A DNA stretch of 64,000 nt, from NCBI GenBank assembly GCA_013036095.1, contig JAAXCW010000011.1, positions 1 through 64,000 on the forward strand. Reading direction: 5' to 3'. This document shows positions 28,783 through 33,114 of this stretch, piece after piece. A program made the position numbers and the translations under genes. This DNA comes from Vulcanimicrobiota bacterium (GTDB lineage: Bacteria; Vulcanimicrobiota; Vulcanimicrobiia; Vulcanimicrobiales; Vulcanimicrobiaceae). Under the pieces are notes generated by a model that was not told the origin of the DNA, did no database searches, and was given only the letters and a program-made list of their open reading frames with translations. Within the stretch, counting starts at the first letter, position 1, and each line of letters opens with the position of its first letter.

Positions 28783-28791
28783 ATTATATCA
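28783..28791 (-). promoter_or_regulatory. Extended -10 promoter for tRNA-Gln
   Basis: The minus strand reads TGATATAAT, a perfect TATAAT with the TGn extension, about 15 bases before the tRNA 5' end. The -35 position would fall inside the terminator hairpin just upstream, and no good -35 is visible, consistent with an extended -10 promoter. Confidence 0.7.
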
Positions 28792-28818
28792 AAAAGGCGC
28801 CCAAATGGGCGCCTTTTT
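28791..28818 (-). terminator. Bidirectional terminator after the NlpC/P60 gene
   Basis: AAAAA-GGCGCCC-AAAT-GGGCGCC-TTTTT: a 7-bp GC stem with a 4-base loop, flanked by A5 and T5, so it works on either strand. It ends transcription of the NlpC/P60 gene (stop at 28841) immediately before the tRNA-Gln promoter. Confidence 0.92.
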
Positions 28819-28840: not shown

Positions 28841-29443
28841 CTAGTGAAGCGACATCACCCGTTTCGCGCCGATGTAGCGCGCCGACCAATATGAATCGGA
28901 GAGGCTGCTGACCATCACGCCGTGACTGGAACTGGCGTGAGCGAAGTGGCCGTTGCCCAGGTAGATGCCGACGTGCGACGGTCCGGGTTCGTAAGTCTGA
29001 AAGAATACCAGGTCGCCGGTTTTGATGCCGCCGACGGTACGGCTGCCGGCATAGTACTGCGCGTCAGCGGTCCGGGGAAGGTGAACGCCGAGCATCGCGT
29101 AGACGTGCTGCACGTAGCCCGAGCAGTCGAATCCGTAGCCGCTGGTTCCACCGAAAACGTAGGGTGTGCCGAGGAAGCGCAGCGCGCTCCGCGTCAGCGT
29201 GCTGGCGATCCGCGCCGTGCGCGTAAACAGCCGGCTGGCGAATCTCGCCATGTCGTGGTGTTTCGCAACGTGAGCTGCGGGATGGGGGGCGATGCCCGTC
29301 CATTGAGCGACGTCCGGGCTTTCCGCAAGTTCGGCCGCAGTCACCGAGGTGTGGGCCGTCGGGGCGGTCGGACTGGCCTGGGCAAATGCACTGCTGCCGG
29401 CGAGTAAAAACGCCAATGCCGCGGGTGCTAAAAGATAACGCAA
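28841..29443 (-). CDS. Secreted NlpC/P60 peptidoglycan hydrolase under c-di-AMP riboswitch
   Basis: Probably a DL-endopeptidase cutting peptide stems in peptidoglycan. 200 residues from a TTG start supported by AGGAG five bases upstream. A signal peptide (MRYLLAPAALAFLLAGSSAFA) is followed by a linker of about 70 residues, then the NlpC/P60 domain: LRFLGTPYVFGGTSGYGFDC with catalytic Cys (DCSGYVQHVY), GDLVFFQTYEPGPSHVGIYL with catalytic His, and NGHFAHASSSHGVMV with the third polar residue. The c-di-AMP aptamer lies 20 bases upstream, and glmM and cdaA lie further up the same strand. Confidence 0.95.
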   Translation of the reverse strand: MRYLLAPAALAFLLAGSSAFAQASPTAPTAHTSVTAAELAESPDVAQWTGIAPHPAAHVAKHHDMARFASRLFTRTARIASTLTRSALRFLGTPYVFGGTSGYGFDCSGYVQHVYAMLGVHLPRTADAQYYAGSRTVGGIKTGDLVFFQTYEPGPSHVGIYLGNGHFAHASSSHGVMVSSLSDSYWSARYIGAKRVMSLH

Positions 29444-29462
29444 AACTGCTCCTCTTTCAAAA

Positions 29463-29572
29463 CACTTGCGGGGTTAGTTGACGGGTTCGGACGTGAAAGA
29501 TCGCCCTAGGGCCGACCGGCCCATTCACCCCACCGGAGAATCCCCCGCTCCGGGCTGCTCCCGGACTCAGTG
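29463..29572 (-). promoter_or_regulatory. c-di-AMP riboswitch (ydaO/yuaA type)
   Basis: Read on the minus strand the leader contains the conserved ydaO elements in order: CACTGAG (5' P1), a CCGGG-agca-CCCGG hairpin, GAGCGGGGGA, GGTGGGGTGAAT, CTAGGGCGATCTTTC, TCCGAACCCGTCAACTAACC, CCGCAAGTG (3' P1). The same blocks occur in the Bacillus ydaO aptamer. The SD AGGAG of the NlpC/P60 gene follows about 12 bases after P1, with no terminator hairpin between, so control at translation initiation looks more likely than attenuation. The aptamer lies downstream of the cdaA-cdaR-glmM operon. Confidence 0.93.
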
Positions 29573-29574
29573 AT

Positions 29575-29682
29575 TACTGGCAGGTTCCCACGCCGGAACT
29601 CATAAGAGCCGGCGTCCTTAGCGCCCATTCTTTCCCCCCAGGCTCGGGTGTCCTCCCCCGGGGCTCTTCCTTGGCGCTTGAC
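29575..29682 (-). other. GC-rich structured leader between glmM and the riboswitch
   Basis: About 108 bases without a gene. On the minus strand a perfect 7-bp inverted repeat ACGCCGG / CCGGCGT encloses 12 bases, and GCGCC / GGCGC repeats flank a GGGGGA ... TGGGGGGAAA stretch that loosely resembles the aptamer core. It may be an extended leader, a decayed second aptamer or a processing site. I see no clear promoter. Confidence 0.45.
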
Positions 29683-31065
29683 TTAGTATTCGGCAGCGGG
29701 CTCCATAACTGTAGCCGCTGCCTGTTCTATGCGGCCGGCCAAGTCGCGCGCGTACGCCTCGACTCGGGTCCGGTCGTCGCCCTCGACCATAACACGGATG
29801 AGGGGCTCGGTACCCGACGGACGTATCAGCAATCGTCCAGATCCTGTTAAGTTCGCCTCAACTTCGCTTATGGCGAGCCGGATTTCCGGACGGTCGAGCA
29901 CGTCTTTGCGATCGGTCCGGACATTGAGCAGTATTTGGGGATAGACCGCCAGCTCGCTTGCCAACTCGTGCAGCATTTTGCCCCGGCGGACCATCGCGGA
30001 GAAAAGTTCGATTGCCGTTTTCGGCCCGTCGCCCGTCGTATTGTTGCGTAAATTGATGATGTGCCCCGACTGCTCGCCGCCGAAGACATATCCGCCCTGA
30101 CGCATCTTCTCCAATACGTAGCGATCGCCAACCGCCGCGCGCAGCAACGTGATTCCGCGCGCTGCAAGCGCTTTTTCCAGACCGAGGTTACTCATCACGG
30201 TGCCGACGACGGTCTCGCCCGCGAGCTCGCCGCGATCGTGCAGTTCGCCGCCGAGAATGAGCATGACGTGATCGCCGTTGCATACGGCGCCGGTTTCGTC
30301 TACGAACAGCGCGCGGTCCGCGTCACCATCGAACGCGACGCCGATCGCTTTCCCGGCTCCGCCGTTCAACTCGCTTACTCGCCGCTGCAAAGCGCGCAAG
30401 TCCGTAGCGCCGCATTCGACGTTTATCCGCGAGCCGTCGTCTTCACAGTTGATCTCGTGCACCGTCGCGCCGAGCTTACGCAATGCATAGGGCGCAAACG
30501 CGTAAGCCGCGCCGAAGGCCCCGTCGACGGCAATCGTGAGCCCGCTGAGACTCCCGGCGCCGGCATAGAGTTCTTCGTAGTAATACTTGCCGAGGTTCAT
30601 GGCACTCTTTGCAACGCCGACATCGGCGCCCGAGGGCCGCGCTTGATCGTCTGCGCGGTGGAGGAGCGCCTCGATCTGATCCTCGGTTGCGTCGGAGAGT
30701 TTGTATCCATCGGGACCGAAGAATTTTATGCCGTTGTCGGCGATTGGATTGTGCGATGCGCTGATCATCACACCGGCCGCCGCGCCGGTGCGTACCGTAA
30801 TGGCGGCGACCGCGGGCGTGGGTAATACGCCGACGGTCAGCGCGTCCCGCCCCACCGACGTGATGCCTGCGACGATTGCGGCCTCGAGCATCGGGCCGGA
30901 AAGTCGCGTGTCGCGCCCCACGATGATAGGACGATGGCGGTCACTGCTGTTCGCAAGCACCGCCGCTCCGGCGCGCCCAACCGAGAAAGCCAACTCCGGC
31001 GTCAGGTCGACATTGGCAACGCCGCGCACGCCGTCGGTGCCGAAAAGGCGCCCTTTACCGTCCAC
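29683..31065 (-). CDS. glmM: Phosphoglucosamine mutase
   Basis: Converts glucosamine-6-phosphate to glucosamine-1-phosphate for UDP-GlcNAc synthesis. The GTG at 31065 is chosen: it puts the conserved GRLFGTDGVRG six residues in and overlaps cdaR by 11 bases; a TTG at 31110 would add 15 residues. The active-site serine loop GVMISASHNPIADNGIKFFG, the metal loop GVAFDGDADRALFVDETG, the sugar-binding GGEQSGHI and the phosphate loop IRPSGTEPLIRVMVEG are present. About 460 residues. GlmM is known to bind and restrain CdaA, which fits this operon. Confidence 0.97.
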   Translation of the reverse strand: MDGKGRLFGTDGVRGVANVDLTPELAFSVGRAGAAVLANSSDRHRPIIVGRDTRLSGPMLEAAIVAGITSVGRDALTVGVLPTPAVAAITVRTGAAAGVMISASHNPIADNGIKFFGPDGYKLSDATEDQIEALLHRADDQARPSGADVGVAKSAMNLGKYYYEELYAGAGSLSGLTIAVDGAFGAAYAFAPYALRKLGATVHEINCEDDGSRINVECGATDLRALQRRVSELNGGAGKAIGVAFDGDADRALFVDETGAVCNGDHVMLILGGELHDRGELAGETVVGTVMSNLGLEKALAARGITLLRAAVGDRYVLEKMRQGGYVFGGEQSGHIINLRNNTTGDGPKTAIELFSAMVRRGKMLHELASELAVYPQILLNVRTDRKDVLDRPEIRLAISEVEANLTGSGRLLIRPSGTEPLIRVMVEGDDRTRVEAYARDLAGRIEQAAATVMEPAAEY

Positions 31066-31723
31066 GCGCCGCCGCAGTTCCCGGAAGAAAGCTCGCTTGT
31101 ACGCGCACAAGGTTCGGCACGACCTGAACGTCTGAAATTTCTTGACCGGCTGAATTCACGGCGATCGGACGGATCATCGCATCGAGTTTCGCTTTGCCGC
31201 TGGAGAGCTGAATATCCACACGTACCGTGGCGACCTGCGAGAGTGCGTCGGTCGGGCCGCGGACCACTGCCGCTGCCGGCGTCAGCGTAAAGTGACTGAC
31301 GACGACGTCCCCTTGCCCGCCATAATGGACTGCCAACGGAAACGTCTTTTGATCCATCTTTGAGATCGTCAGCGAGACCGAGGCCGGACTGAGCGATTGC
31401 ACCACGACGTTTGGCGCGACGAGCTGGACCGGGACGTTGTACACGCCGGCGGTGCGGTTCGAAAGATCGAGTACTGCCTTGACCTCCTCCTGTTTTATCG
31501 GCGGCTCTCCGGGCTTGGGCACGATTGCGACCGTTGCGGCCTTATCGGAATAGGTCGCGATGAGTCCCGCCGGCAGATTGGCCGCGTTGATCGGAACCGT
31601 AAGGTGTTCTTCGAATGTCGGCACCAGCGCACTGCCGGCGAGGCGAAAATAAGCCCAGCCGATCAGCGCGAGCAAAACCGAGAGCGCCTTCAGCGCGAAG
31701 TTATGACGGATGATCTGCAGCAT
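31055..31723 (-). CDS. cdaR: CdaR (YbbR-domain) regulator of diadenylate cyclase
   Basis: Membrane-anchored regulator of CdaA. 222 residues: a short cytoplasmic start, one TM segment (ALKALSVLLALIGWAYF) and an extracytoplasmic part with YbbR repeats (VPINAANLPAGLIATYSDKA, VPVQLVAPNVVVQSLSPASV, VRGPTDALSQVATVRVDIQL). YbbR repeats usually come in several copies; about two are clear here, so it is a short form. Overlaps cdaA by 23 bases upstream and glmM by 11 bases downstream. Confidence 0.9.
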   Translation of the reverse strand: MLQIIRHNFALKALSVLLALIGWAYFRLAGSALVPTFEEHLTVPINAANLPAGLIATYSDKAATVAIVPKPGEPPIKQEEVKAVLDLSNRTAGVYNVPVQLVAPNVVVQSLSPASVSLTISKMDQKTFPLAVHYGGQGDVVVSHFTLTPAAAVVRGPTDALSQVATVRVDIQLSSGKAKLDAMIRPIAVNSAGQEISDVQVVPNLVRVQASFLPGTAAARGR

Positions 31724-32576
31724 GGTCTTGCGGCGCGGGCTTGCGCGGCGGCGTCAGGCGCGCTCGGAGATTGCGCACGAGATCGCGGCGCATCGTGCCA
31801 GGGTCGCGGTGCGGCCGCGTCGCCGCGAGCAAGAAGCGAAAGAGGCGCGGCTCTTCCTCTATGGCGCGCGTCAGTTTTCCGTCACGCGCGACCGCAACGG
31901 TACCGCTTTCGGAGACGACGATCACCACCGCGTCGGTCTGCTCTGACAGACCGAGCGCGGCACGGTGACGTGTTCCCAGCCGCGGTTCGCCCAGCGACTG
32001 CTCTGCCAGCGGCAAAAGACAGGCGGCAGCTTCGACCATATCTTCGCGCACGATCGCCGCGCCATCGTGCAGCGGAGAACGCGGCGAAAAAATCGAGAGC
32101 AGTAACTCGGCAGACAACCGTGCATTCAAGACGGTGCCGCTTTCTACGAATTCCTTGAGACCCGTCTGCTGCTCGATCACGATCAGCGCGCCGATTTTCT
32201 CGCGCGAGAGTAAAAAGGATGTGCGCGCGACGATCGACATCGCGCGGTCCTCGCTGCGATTTTGGCGCTCGACGTCCTCCGACCGGAATATGCCGCCGCG
32301 TCCAAGCCGCTCCAAAGCGCGCCGCAGTTCGGGCTGAAAGATGATCGGCAAGGAAACGGCTGCGCCCAGCAGCGCGAGCTTTAAGATCGTTCCCAACAGA
32401 AATAGATTCAAGAACGTCGCAAAGCCTAGGAGCGCAACCAGAACGAGAACGCCGGTCAGAATTTGAACGGCGCGCGTCCCGCGAATCAGGAGCACCAGAT
32501 AATAAATCAAGACGCTGGTCGCGACGATATCCAAAACATCCGTCGGAGCGAACGAATGCAGCAGGTTATTCCACAC
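31701..32576 (-). CDS. cdaA: Diadenylate cyclase CdaA
   Basis: Makes cyclic di-AMP from two ATP. 291 residues: three N-terminal TM segments (about 12-80: DIVATSVLIYYLVLLIRG, ILTGVLVLVALLGFATFLNL, LLGTILKLALLGAAVSLPII), then the DAC domain with GALIVIEQQTGLKEFVESGT, the DGA motif (RSPLHDGAAIV) and the RHR motif (LGTRHRAALGLSE). This is the CdaA (YbbP) architecture. The C-terminal tail is Arg/Pro-rich and overlaps cdaR. Confidence 0.97.
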   Translation of the reverse strand: MWNNLLHSFAPTDVLDIVATSVLIYYLVLLIRGTRAVQILTGVLVLVALLGFATFLNLFLLGTILKLALLGAAVSLPIIFQPELRRALERLGRGGIFRSEDVERQNRSEDRAMSIVARTSFLLSREKIGALIVIEQQTGLKEFVESGTVLNARLSAELLLSIFSPRSPLHDGAAIVREDMVEAAACLLPLAEQSLGEPRLGTRHRAALGLSEQTDAVVIVVSESGTVAVARDGKLTRAIEEEPRLFRFLLAATRPHRDPGTMRRDLVRNLRARLTPPRKPAPQDHAADHPS

Positions 32577-33114
32577 CGCTCTGCTCCAACAACGTCTCGA
32601 GAATGCGGTCCGGCGCGATTTCGGACGCCTGCAAACCGCTCGCTGCGATCTGCGCGAGGATATCTGCAGGCAACGGATTTAGCAGCGTCACTTTCCGGTA
32701 ACCGTGAAAGCGGCGCAGCTCGACGTCGGCAATATTCAGAATAAGCGACGGCATCGTTCGCGCGGGTTCGAATTCGATGACAAAAATATCCGCCAGAACC
32801 GTGCATTCGAGGACGCCTGCGACTCCCGCATCAGCTGAAAACGCTCCGGCGATCGCGTGCAAGGCATCCGCGGGCGTTGGTTCAATTGCAAGAGCGATGA
32901 TCGTTTCCTCATACCATCGCGCGCCGGGAAGTGCTTGCGCGACTTCGGTGGGCTCGATGGAAGCCGGGCCTTGGACGAGCCCGTACGTCCGGCCGGCGGC
33001 CGGGTGAGGCGCGCCGAACTGCAACGACGAACCGCCGGGTAAAGATGCCGATATCTTCCGCTGCGTTACGCCGCCAATCGTTCCGTCGAACCGAACCGTT
33101 CGCGCCCAATTCAC
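32566..33114 (-). CDS. Hypothetical protein coupled to cdaA
   Basis: 182 residues from the GTG at 33114, the last in-frame start before the divergent rsgA (33134); longer versions would run antisense into rsgA. The family is not recognised. It is soluble and has two halves: a beta-looking start (RTVRFDGTIGGVTQRKISAS) and a C-terminal part (SLILNIADVELRRFHGYRKV, LEQSGVE end). It is the first gene of the cdaA-cdaR-glmM unit and overlaps the cdaA start by 11 bases, so it could modulate c-di-AMP synthesis; that is inference from position only. Confidence 0.7.
   Translation of the reverse strand: MNWARTVRFDGTIGGVTQRKISASLPGGSSLQFGAPHPAAGRTYGLVQGPASIEPTEVAQALPGARWYEETIIALAIEPTPADALHAIAGAFSADAGVAGVLECTVLADIFVIEFEPARTMPSLILNIADVELRRFHGYRKVTLLNPLPADILAQIAASGLQASEIAPDRILETLLEQSGVE

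Follow-up and report, generated by a model that had tools for sequence, protein, structure and literature searches.

A putative c-di-AMP riboswitch between a cyclase operon and an NlpC/P60 hydrolase gene in Vulcanimicrobiota: a candidate translational OFF switch

We have analysed a gene cluster on the minus strand of a 64,000-nucleotide (nt) stretch of contig JAAXCW010000011.1 from a Vulcanimicrobiota bacterium, called the window below. Read from position 33114 to 28841, the cluster consists of an uncharacterised gene for 182 amino acids (aa), cdaA, cdaR, glmM, an aptamer of the ydaO class for cyclic diadenosine monophosphate (c-di-AMP), and a gene for an NlpC/P60 wall hydrolase, here called nlpC. 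This order on one strand, with the same coordinates, had been given in an earlier interpretation made from the letters alone (the sequence-only reading), and its assignments of cdaA, cdaR, glmM, the ydaO aptamer and the NlpC/P60 gene hold in the family searches. The host belongs to a group of little-known soil bacteria, its closest named records being metagenome-assembled genomes of Candidatus Eremiobacterota (97% CdaA identity), and its own assembly comprises 2.58 Mb with 97.02% completeness and 6.6% contamination. The features that are central to the discussion are the following.

31701..32576, minus strand: cdaA, membrane diadenylate cyclase (TIGR00159, 213.9 bits, cut-off 188.8; DAC and CdaA_N domains)
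31055..31723, minus strand: cdaR, YbbR-domain regulator of CdaA, overlapping cdaA (PF07949, 8e-6, 26.5 bits, cut-off 22.3)
29683..31065, minus strand: glmM, phosphoglucosamine mutase (TIGR01455, 535.5 bits, cut-off 447.55)
29447..29582, minus strand: c-di-AMP (ydaO/yuaA) riboswitch aptamer (RF00379, model positions 1-134 of 134, E 5.9e-19)
28841..29443, minus strand: NlpC/P60 wall hydrolase gene, UUG start at 29441-29443 (PF00877, NLPC_P60, 1.3e-32)

The covariance-model search of the leader with RF00379 had been set beforehand as the test on which the sequence-only reading could fail, and it gives 87.1 bits against a gathering threshold of 38. The element is thus a putative c-di-AMP aptamer. 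The predicted source of the ligand is CdaA, which aligns with the solved diadenylate cyclase chain 9g69 such that the motifs we take to be its DGA and RHR motifs match up. The product of cdaR has no NCBIfam match. For glmM, the sequence favours a GTG start at 31065 over a longer TTG reading from 31110, in which the TIGR01455 match begins at residue 23, and the translation contains ISASHNP, presumably the catalytic serine loop. The genes cdaA, cdaR and glmM form a known conserved operon, in which CdaR and GlmM restrain or tune CdaA, and GlmM links the supply of uridine diphosphate N-acetylglucosamine to the cyclase. Among the related loci described below, cdaA is followed by cdaR in 75, with a median gap of -35 nt by aligned starts; cdaR and glmM also overlap, the figure of -58 nt being too negative owing to the glmM start used.

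The hydrolase has a signal-peptide-like N-terminus, as judged by reading, and its best solved relative is LytE. Cys107, His157 and His169, presumably its catalytic residues, align with the solved LytE chain, and the protein probably cuts the cell wall in this organism. A search of viral contigs gave no relative of it. The aptamer, the cyclase and the hydrolase are each the sole match in the genome for RF00379, the DAC domain and NlpC/P60, respectively. Among 41 genomes drawn from the same family, this one included, exactly one DAC match is present in 40 and none in 1, and NlpC/P60 is matched exactly once in 30, two or three times in 9 and not at all in 2. The genome also encodes a DHH-DHHA1 protein (a 337-aa frame) beside frames that we take to be rbfA- and truB-like; this protein is presumably a candidate c-di-AMP phosphodiesterase. 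A domain search for the PgpH-type 7TMR-HDED domain did not find it.

We now turn to the conservation of the arrangement. In a sample of 148 genomes of the phylum, own genome included, RF00379 is matched in 98, which represent 46 of 70 genera, and in 64 of the 85 that are at least 90% complete and no more than 5% contaminated. The DNA around all 108 matching places was oriented on the aptamer, and the neighbours were identified by tblastn with the proteins of the window. Downstream of the aptamer there is an NlpC/P60 gene in 91 cases, a contig end in 3 and another gene in 14. Upstream on the same strand, cdaA lies within 3.3 kb in 73 of the 108, and another 5 have it at 3.3-5 kb; in 14 this side is cut by a contig end (with glmM visible in 10), and no cdaA is seen in 16. 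When the count is limited to loci whose flanks cover 5 kb or more upstream and 700 nt or more downstream, 82 remain; nlpC is present in 70 of them, with cdaA inside 5 kb at 69 of those 70, and the remaining 12 have neither gene. Families f1 and f2 show the linkage, as do seven genomes of f3 (G053, G056, G065, G068, G072, G074, G102). The five loci with the larger distance hold extra sequence, which in the one that was scanned (L127) encodes an M61 peptidase. Since the assembly has no other RF00379 match and dozens of related genomes show the same arrangement, its origin by chance is, on these sequences, not a sensible account.

The genomes without the aptamer were considered as well. A hydrolase search of 20 genomes lacking an RF00379 match found no hydrolase in 14, including G076, which is 96% complete and of the same genus. 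For G119 and G125 the apparent absence of the aptamer is due to a contig end, and the short loci examined in G024, G038, G086 and G133 contain a hydrolase relative and gave no aptamer match. Further away, 43 cdaA loci (L066-L110 without L091 and L099; some short, and two titled only 'bacterium') contain no RF00379 match above threshold.

It is important to point out that conserved proximity could be without regulatory meaning, that is, an nlpC riboswitch of a known kind could by chance have come to lie beside the cda operon, a scenario that would be compatible with the aptamer being an OFF switch. Three lineages speak for it, in which the aptamer-nlpC pair is kept without linkage to cdaA (G054, where cdaA is ca 15 kb away on the same contig, and G079 and G095, where it is on another contig). 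Because the pair persists where cdaA lies elsewhere, the switch belongs to nlpC, and the cda operon is not needed in cis. The spacing points the same way: the gap from glmM to the aptamer is 40-200 nt in 69 of 88 loci, whereas the cda genes overlap, so nlpC may have its own promoter. A promoter scan gave one site, located on the aptamer tail, against 0.9 expected, and it was not used. The gap in the window contains one further element.

29590..29615, minus strand: hairpin between glmM and the aptamer, with no T run, read from sequence and fold

Compared with shuffled sequences, the 60 nt that lead up to the aptamer fold somewhat better, with a mean z of -1.31 over 74 loci (below -1 in 45 and below -2 in 19), the value for the window being -0.44. 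The hairpin varies in sequence, and by eye a CCUGC-like stretch follows it in several genera. Co-transcription of nlpC with glmM is best treated as hypothetical. On the other side stands the retention of cdaA in 69 of the 70 adequately covered nlpC loci of f1, f2 and f3, a ratio that has no neighbour background for comparison. On balance, we are rather doubtful that the neighbourhood is meaningless.

The way in which the aptamer could act on nlpC is indicated by the anatomy of the leader, in which the following elements can be recognised.

29494..29500, minus strand: pseudoknot strand 1, UCUUUCA, in an aptamer loop, pairing with the tail
29453..29459, minus strand: pseudoknot strand 2, UGAAAGA, in the 3' tail, pairing with the loop and overlapping the Shine-Dalgarno core by one base
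29449..29453, minus strand: Shine-Dalgarno core AGGAG, 5 nt before the start codon, by sequence reading

Only 3 nt separate the end of the aptamer match (29447) from the start codon (29443), so no terminator fits between them, and a pattern scan found no terminator-like site on the minus strand there. The two pseudoknot strands form 7 Watson-Crick pairs in the window. Because variation in loop length throws the DNA alignment (A2) out of register in places, a swap control was used instead of column-wise pair counts. For 77 distinct loop/tail pairs from 94 nlpC-type loci, the longest Watson-Crick helix has a mean of 6.23 bp, compared to 5.44 bp when the tails are swapped between loci (standard deviation 0.10, highest of 200 trials 5.74) and 4.13 bp when the loop letters are shuffled. 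In sequence terms, the excess of native over swapped tails is covariation, and the excess of swapped over shuffled is shared sequence. The paired variants include UCUUUC/GAAAGA, UUCUUCC/GGAAGAA and UCUUUCUC/GAGAAAGA. These counts include L127, whose anchor is visibly misplaced in A2, and L184, L139 and L215, which end at a contig end downstream and were entered as nlpC-type.

With the first in-frame start beyond the purine tract counted as the nlpC start codon, 85 of 91 loci have UUG, 4 have ATG and 2 have GTG; the count retains L189, where the start was placed 206 nt away, probably because of a broken frame or a wrong alignment. For comparison, TTG starts 3 of 72 cdaA and 6 of 77 cdaR genes where a start could be placed, most of the others having ATG or GTG. 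For these two genes the start codon closest to the position given by the alignment was used, and only if the match began within 12 residues, so that the counts are approximate, and as the genomes are related no probability is claimed. The glmM starts are too unreliable to serve as a control: only 4 of 23 were placed, all TTG, and 19 were left unplaced, probably owing to the long TTG reading in the query. The UUG is kept where the second codon changes (to CGN, CAT or AAG), and such a weak start would make nlpC more dependent on its Shine-Dalgarno sequence.

One explanation of the UUG would be a switch of the opposite sign. Namely, in the unliganded RNA the aptamer 3' strand CGCAAG could pair with the start region (CUUGCG or UUUUGCG) and hide the UUG, and c-di-AMP would then free the start. 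The complementarity is indeed present in the window and in many relatives. However, there is no clear covariation: with Watson-Crick pairs the native value is 3.68 against 3.56 for swapped sequences (standard deviation 0.08, highest of 300 trials 3.83), and with G-U pairs allowed it is 5.14 against 5.11 (65 distinct pairs). As the swap control shows no clear excess, this pairing was rejected as a conserved feature. It is, moreover, lost in genera g2 and g12 although the UUG is retained, and therefore does not explain the UUG. The members of the class described in the accessible parts of PMC9960051 and PMC10117811 repress, and we consider an ON switch here to be highly improbable.

We favour instead a translational OFF switch, to which we assign a probability of roughly two thirds, the ligand binding and the direction of control being predictions. 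In this mechanism, CdaA, restrained or tuned by CdaR and GlmM, would make c-di-AMP, which would bind the aptamer in front of nlpC and thereby close the pseudoknot between the loop UCUUUCA and the 3' tail UGAAAGA. The closed aptamer would extend as far as the first base of the Shine-Dalgarno core, 9 nt upstream of the weak UUG, and would keep the 30S subunit off. At high c-di-AMP, little wall hydrolase would thus be synthesised, while at low c-di-AMP the enzyme would be made. This mechanism is preferred because there is no room for a terminator, because the covarying pseudoknot reaches the Shine-Dalgarno sequence, and because there is a precedent in Corynebacterium glutamicum. The RF00379 score and the retention of cdaA at 69 of the 70 nlpC loci also speak for it.

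Several observations weigh against this mechanism. The longest Watson-Crick helix is at most 5 bp in 20 of the 94 loci, and in some (L209, L210, L114, L120, L125, L202) it is a different pairing. Swapped tails also pair well, which means that conserved sequence, not covariation, accounts for much of the pairing, and since the loci are related and this relatedness was not removed, the swap test yields no probability. In the window, the pseudoknot overlaps AGGAG by a single base, so the block would have to be mainly steric. In addition, when the leaders are folded without the pseudoknot, the mean unpaired probability of the Shine-Dalgarno core is 0.39 over 89 leaders (one more, L127, was lost as no Shine-Dalgarno sequence was found in it), with values above 0.5 in 22 and 0.31 in the window. 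The core is thus predicted to be mostly paired even without the pseudoknot, so that a simply open unbound state is unsupported; the folding model is uninformative to adverse.

Another option considered was that the aptamer controls mainly the elongation or the stability of the transcript and not translation initiation. Premature termination is reported for rpfA of Streptomyces coelicolor in the accessible part of PMC10117811, and in C. glutamicum the presence of the riboswitch alone lowered the transcript regardless of c-di-AMP (accessible part of PMC9960051). In the same account the transcript did not change with c-di-AMP, and here the aptamer-start interval of 3 nt, with no terminator-like site on its minus strand, also argues against such control. 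We regard this alternative as unlikely, and the translational OFF switch is retained in the following.

The sequence-only reading had proposed that the messenger made by the first genes feeds back on the last one. An action of the messenger on nlpC is plausible, and both the conserved linkage and the occurrence of each part as a single copy make it more so. Feedback on CdaA itself does not follow from this; the relation of cyclase to hydrolase would be one of feed-forward. The connection to UDP-N-acetylglucosamine supply, which the same reading proposed, would derive from what is generally known of GlmM and CdaA. The earlier interpretation as a whole is in this sense partly supported. It is also possible, and we put this forward tentatively, that the only cyclase operon, the only c-di-AMP RNA sensor and what is often the only NlpC/P60 gene constitute one conserved regulatory unit, in which the aptamer serves as its own expression platform by means of a ligand-closed pseudoknot on the ribosome-binding site, the weak UUG being preserved as a part of the switch.

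Two further features flank the genes discussed above.

32566..33114, minus strand: uncharacterised first gene, 182 aa, GTG start at 33114, overlapping cdaA; predicted tandem ferredoxin-like fold
28791..28818, minus strand: terminator-like hairpin with a T run, after nlpC and before a tRNA-Gln gene, by sequence reading

A homologue of the first gene lies upstream of cdaA in 52 loci, with a median gap of -8 nt. Searches of Pfam and NCBIfam gave no family match, and an alignment search against solved sequences and Pfam gave no convincing one. An alignment (A1) was built from 42 of the 46 listed homologues, omitting L131 (fused frame), L207 (doubtful start), L128 and L183, and the AlphaFold2 model obtained with these 42 sequences has a mean predicted local distance difference test score of 92.7 and looks like two ferredoxin-like halves. 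Foldseek gave five matches at E of 0.001 or below, whose TM-scores relative to the query range from 0.28 to 0.46, and the highest TM-score among the 50 matches listed is 0.62, for the formiminotransferase domain 1qd1 at 8% identity. No function of the protein follows from these matches to a predicted structure. The hairpin after nlpC is not among the sites of the pattern scan, perhaps because A and T runs were taken as part of the stem.

Aptamers and related elements were also seen in other settings. In more distant members of the phylum the aptamer precedes kdpA, alanine racemase, a lytic transglycosylase or a universal stress protein (L118, L154, L188, L117). Extra aptamers in L206, L134 and L164 of the class-level relatives in f3 stand before proteins of ca 430-450 aa with a signal-like start; those of L206 and L134, the two that were scanned, have no Pfam family match. 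Second copies in f1 (L167, L171, L180) precede a glycosyltransferase, assigned by Pfam in L167 and alike in the other two, and differ in loop and tail. Finally, a glmS ribozyme is found 2.8-4.3 kb downstream of cdaA in 10 of the 43 distant loci (L068, L072, L073, L076, L078, L080, L083, L084, L089, L095), at the place taken by the c-di-AMP aptamer in the present group.

The locus is of interest as a case in which the synthesis and the use of a signal are encoded side by side, and it extends c-di-AMP control of wall hydrolases, as predicted here, to a further bacterial group. For the way in which c-di-AMP riboswitches control translation, a pseudoknot is suggested in PMC9960051, and the dozens of natural variants in which a pseudoknot covaries at the ribosome-binding site make the mechanism directly testable. 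Literature searches for c-di-AMP with Eremiobacterota or with WPS-2 found no paper, and one combining cdaA, cdaR, glmM, riboswitch and operon returned no title on such an arrangement; part of the literature on the class lay outside these searches, which are no proof that it is unpublished. The aptamer class, the target family and the operon are known already, as is c-di-AMP control of NlpC/P60 and other hydrolase genes in Actinobacteria. Two findings are new as far as the searches go, namely the near-invariant UUG start and the conserved association, in this group, of the cyclase operon with the sensor-hydrolase pair. Compared with the cdaA-cdaR-glmM operon as generally known, the gene order and overlap are the same, and here a c-di-AMP aptamer and nlpC follow.

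As to the RNA itself, the ydaO crystal structures 4QLM and 4QLN belong to the same class, and in our own reading of the construct given in the accessible part of PMC5393176 the same loop-tail pseudoknot is present as CUCCUUCG/CGAAGGAG. The pseudoknot is therefore a feature of the class, and its notable trait here is the large number of genomes in which it extends to the ribosome-binding site of nlpC. The crystal construct has its GGAG wholly within the pseudoknot, whereas in the present leader only the first base of AGGAG is included. One review counts ydaO among the riboswitches in which the expression platform docks on the aptamer (PMC10907184).

The leader differs from the terminator-type ydaO riboswitches of the Bacillus subtilis kimA kind in that there is no intrinsic terminator between aptamer and gene. 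The ydaO-like riboswitches of Streptomyces rpfA and other hydrolase genes are similar in placing a c-di-AMP sensor before wall hydrolase genes and are reported to be OFF switches; they differ in the reported termination, in the six or seven hydrolase genes with such leaders and in the DisA cyclase (accessible part of PMC10117811). The closest likeness is to the nlpC riboswitch of C. glutamicum, for which, in the accessible part of PMC9960051, high c-di-AMP lowers the protein and not the transcript and a CTCC-GGAG pseudoknot is suggested. The RNA class, the NlpC/P60 target, the lack of a canonical terminator, a repression judged to be translational and a suggested pseudoknot at the ribosome-binding site are common to both. 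The cyclase there is DisA, in an operon with radA, and there are four NlpC/P60 proteins, whereas here the sole DAC protein found is CdaA, with its operon adjacent, and one NlpC/P60 gene was found. The anatomy of the present leader thus fits a translational riboswitch of the C. glutamicum nlpC type, with repression by c-di-AMP as its predicted mode of action.

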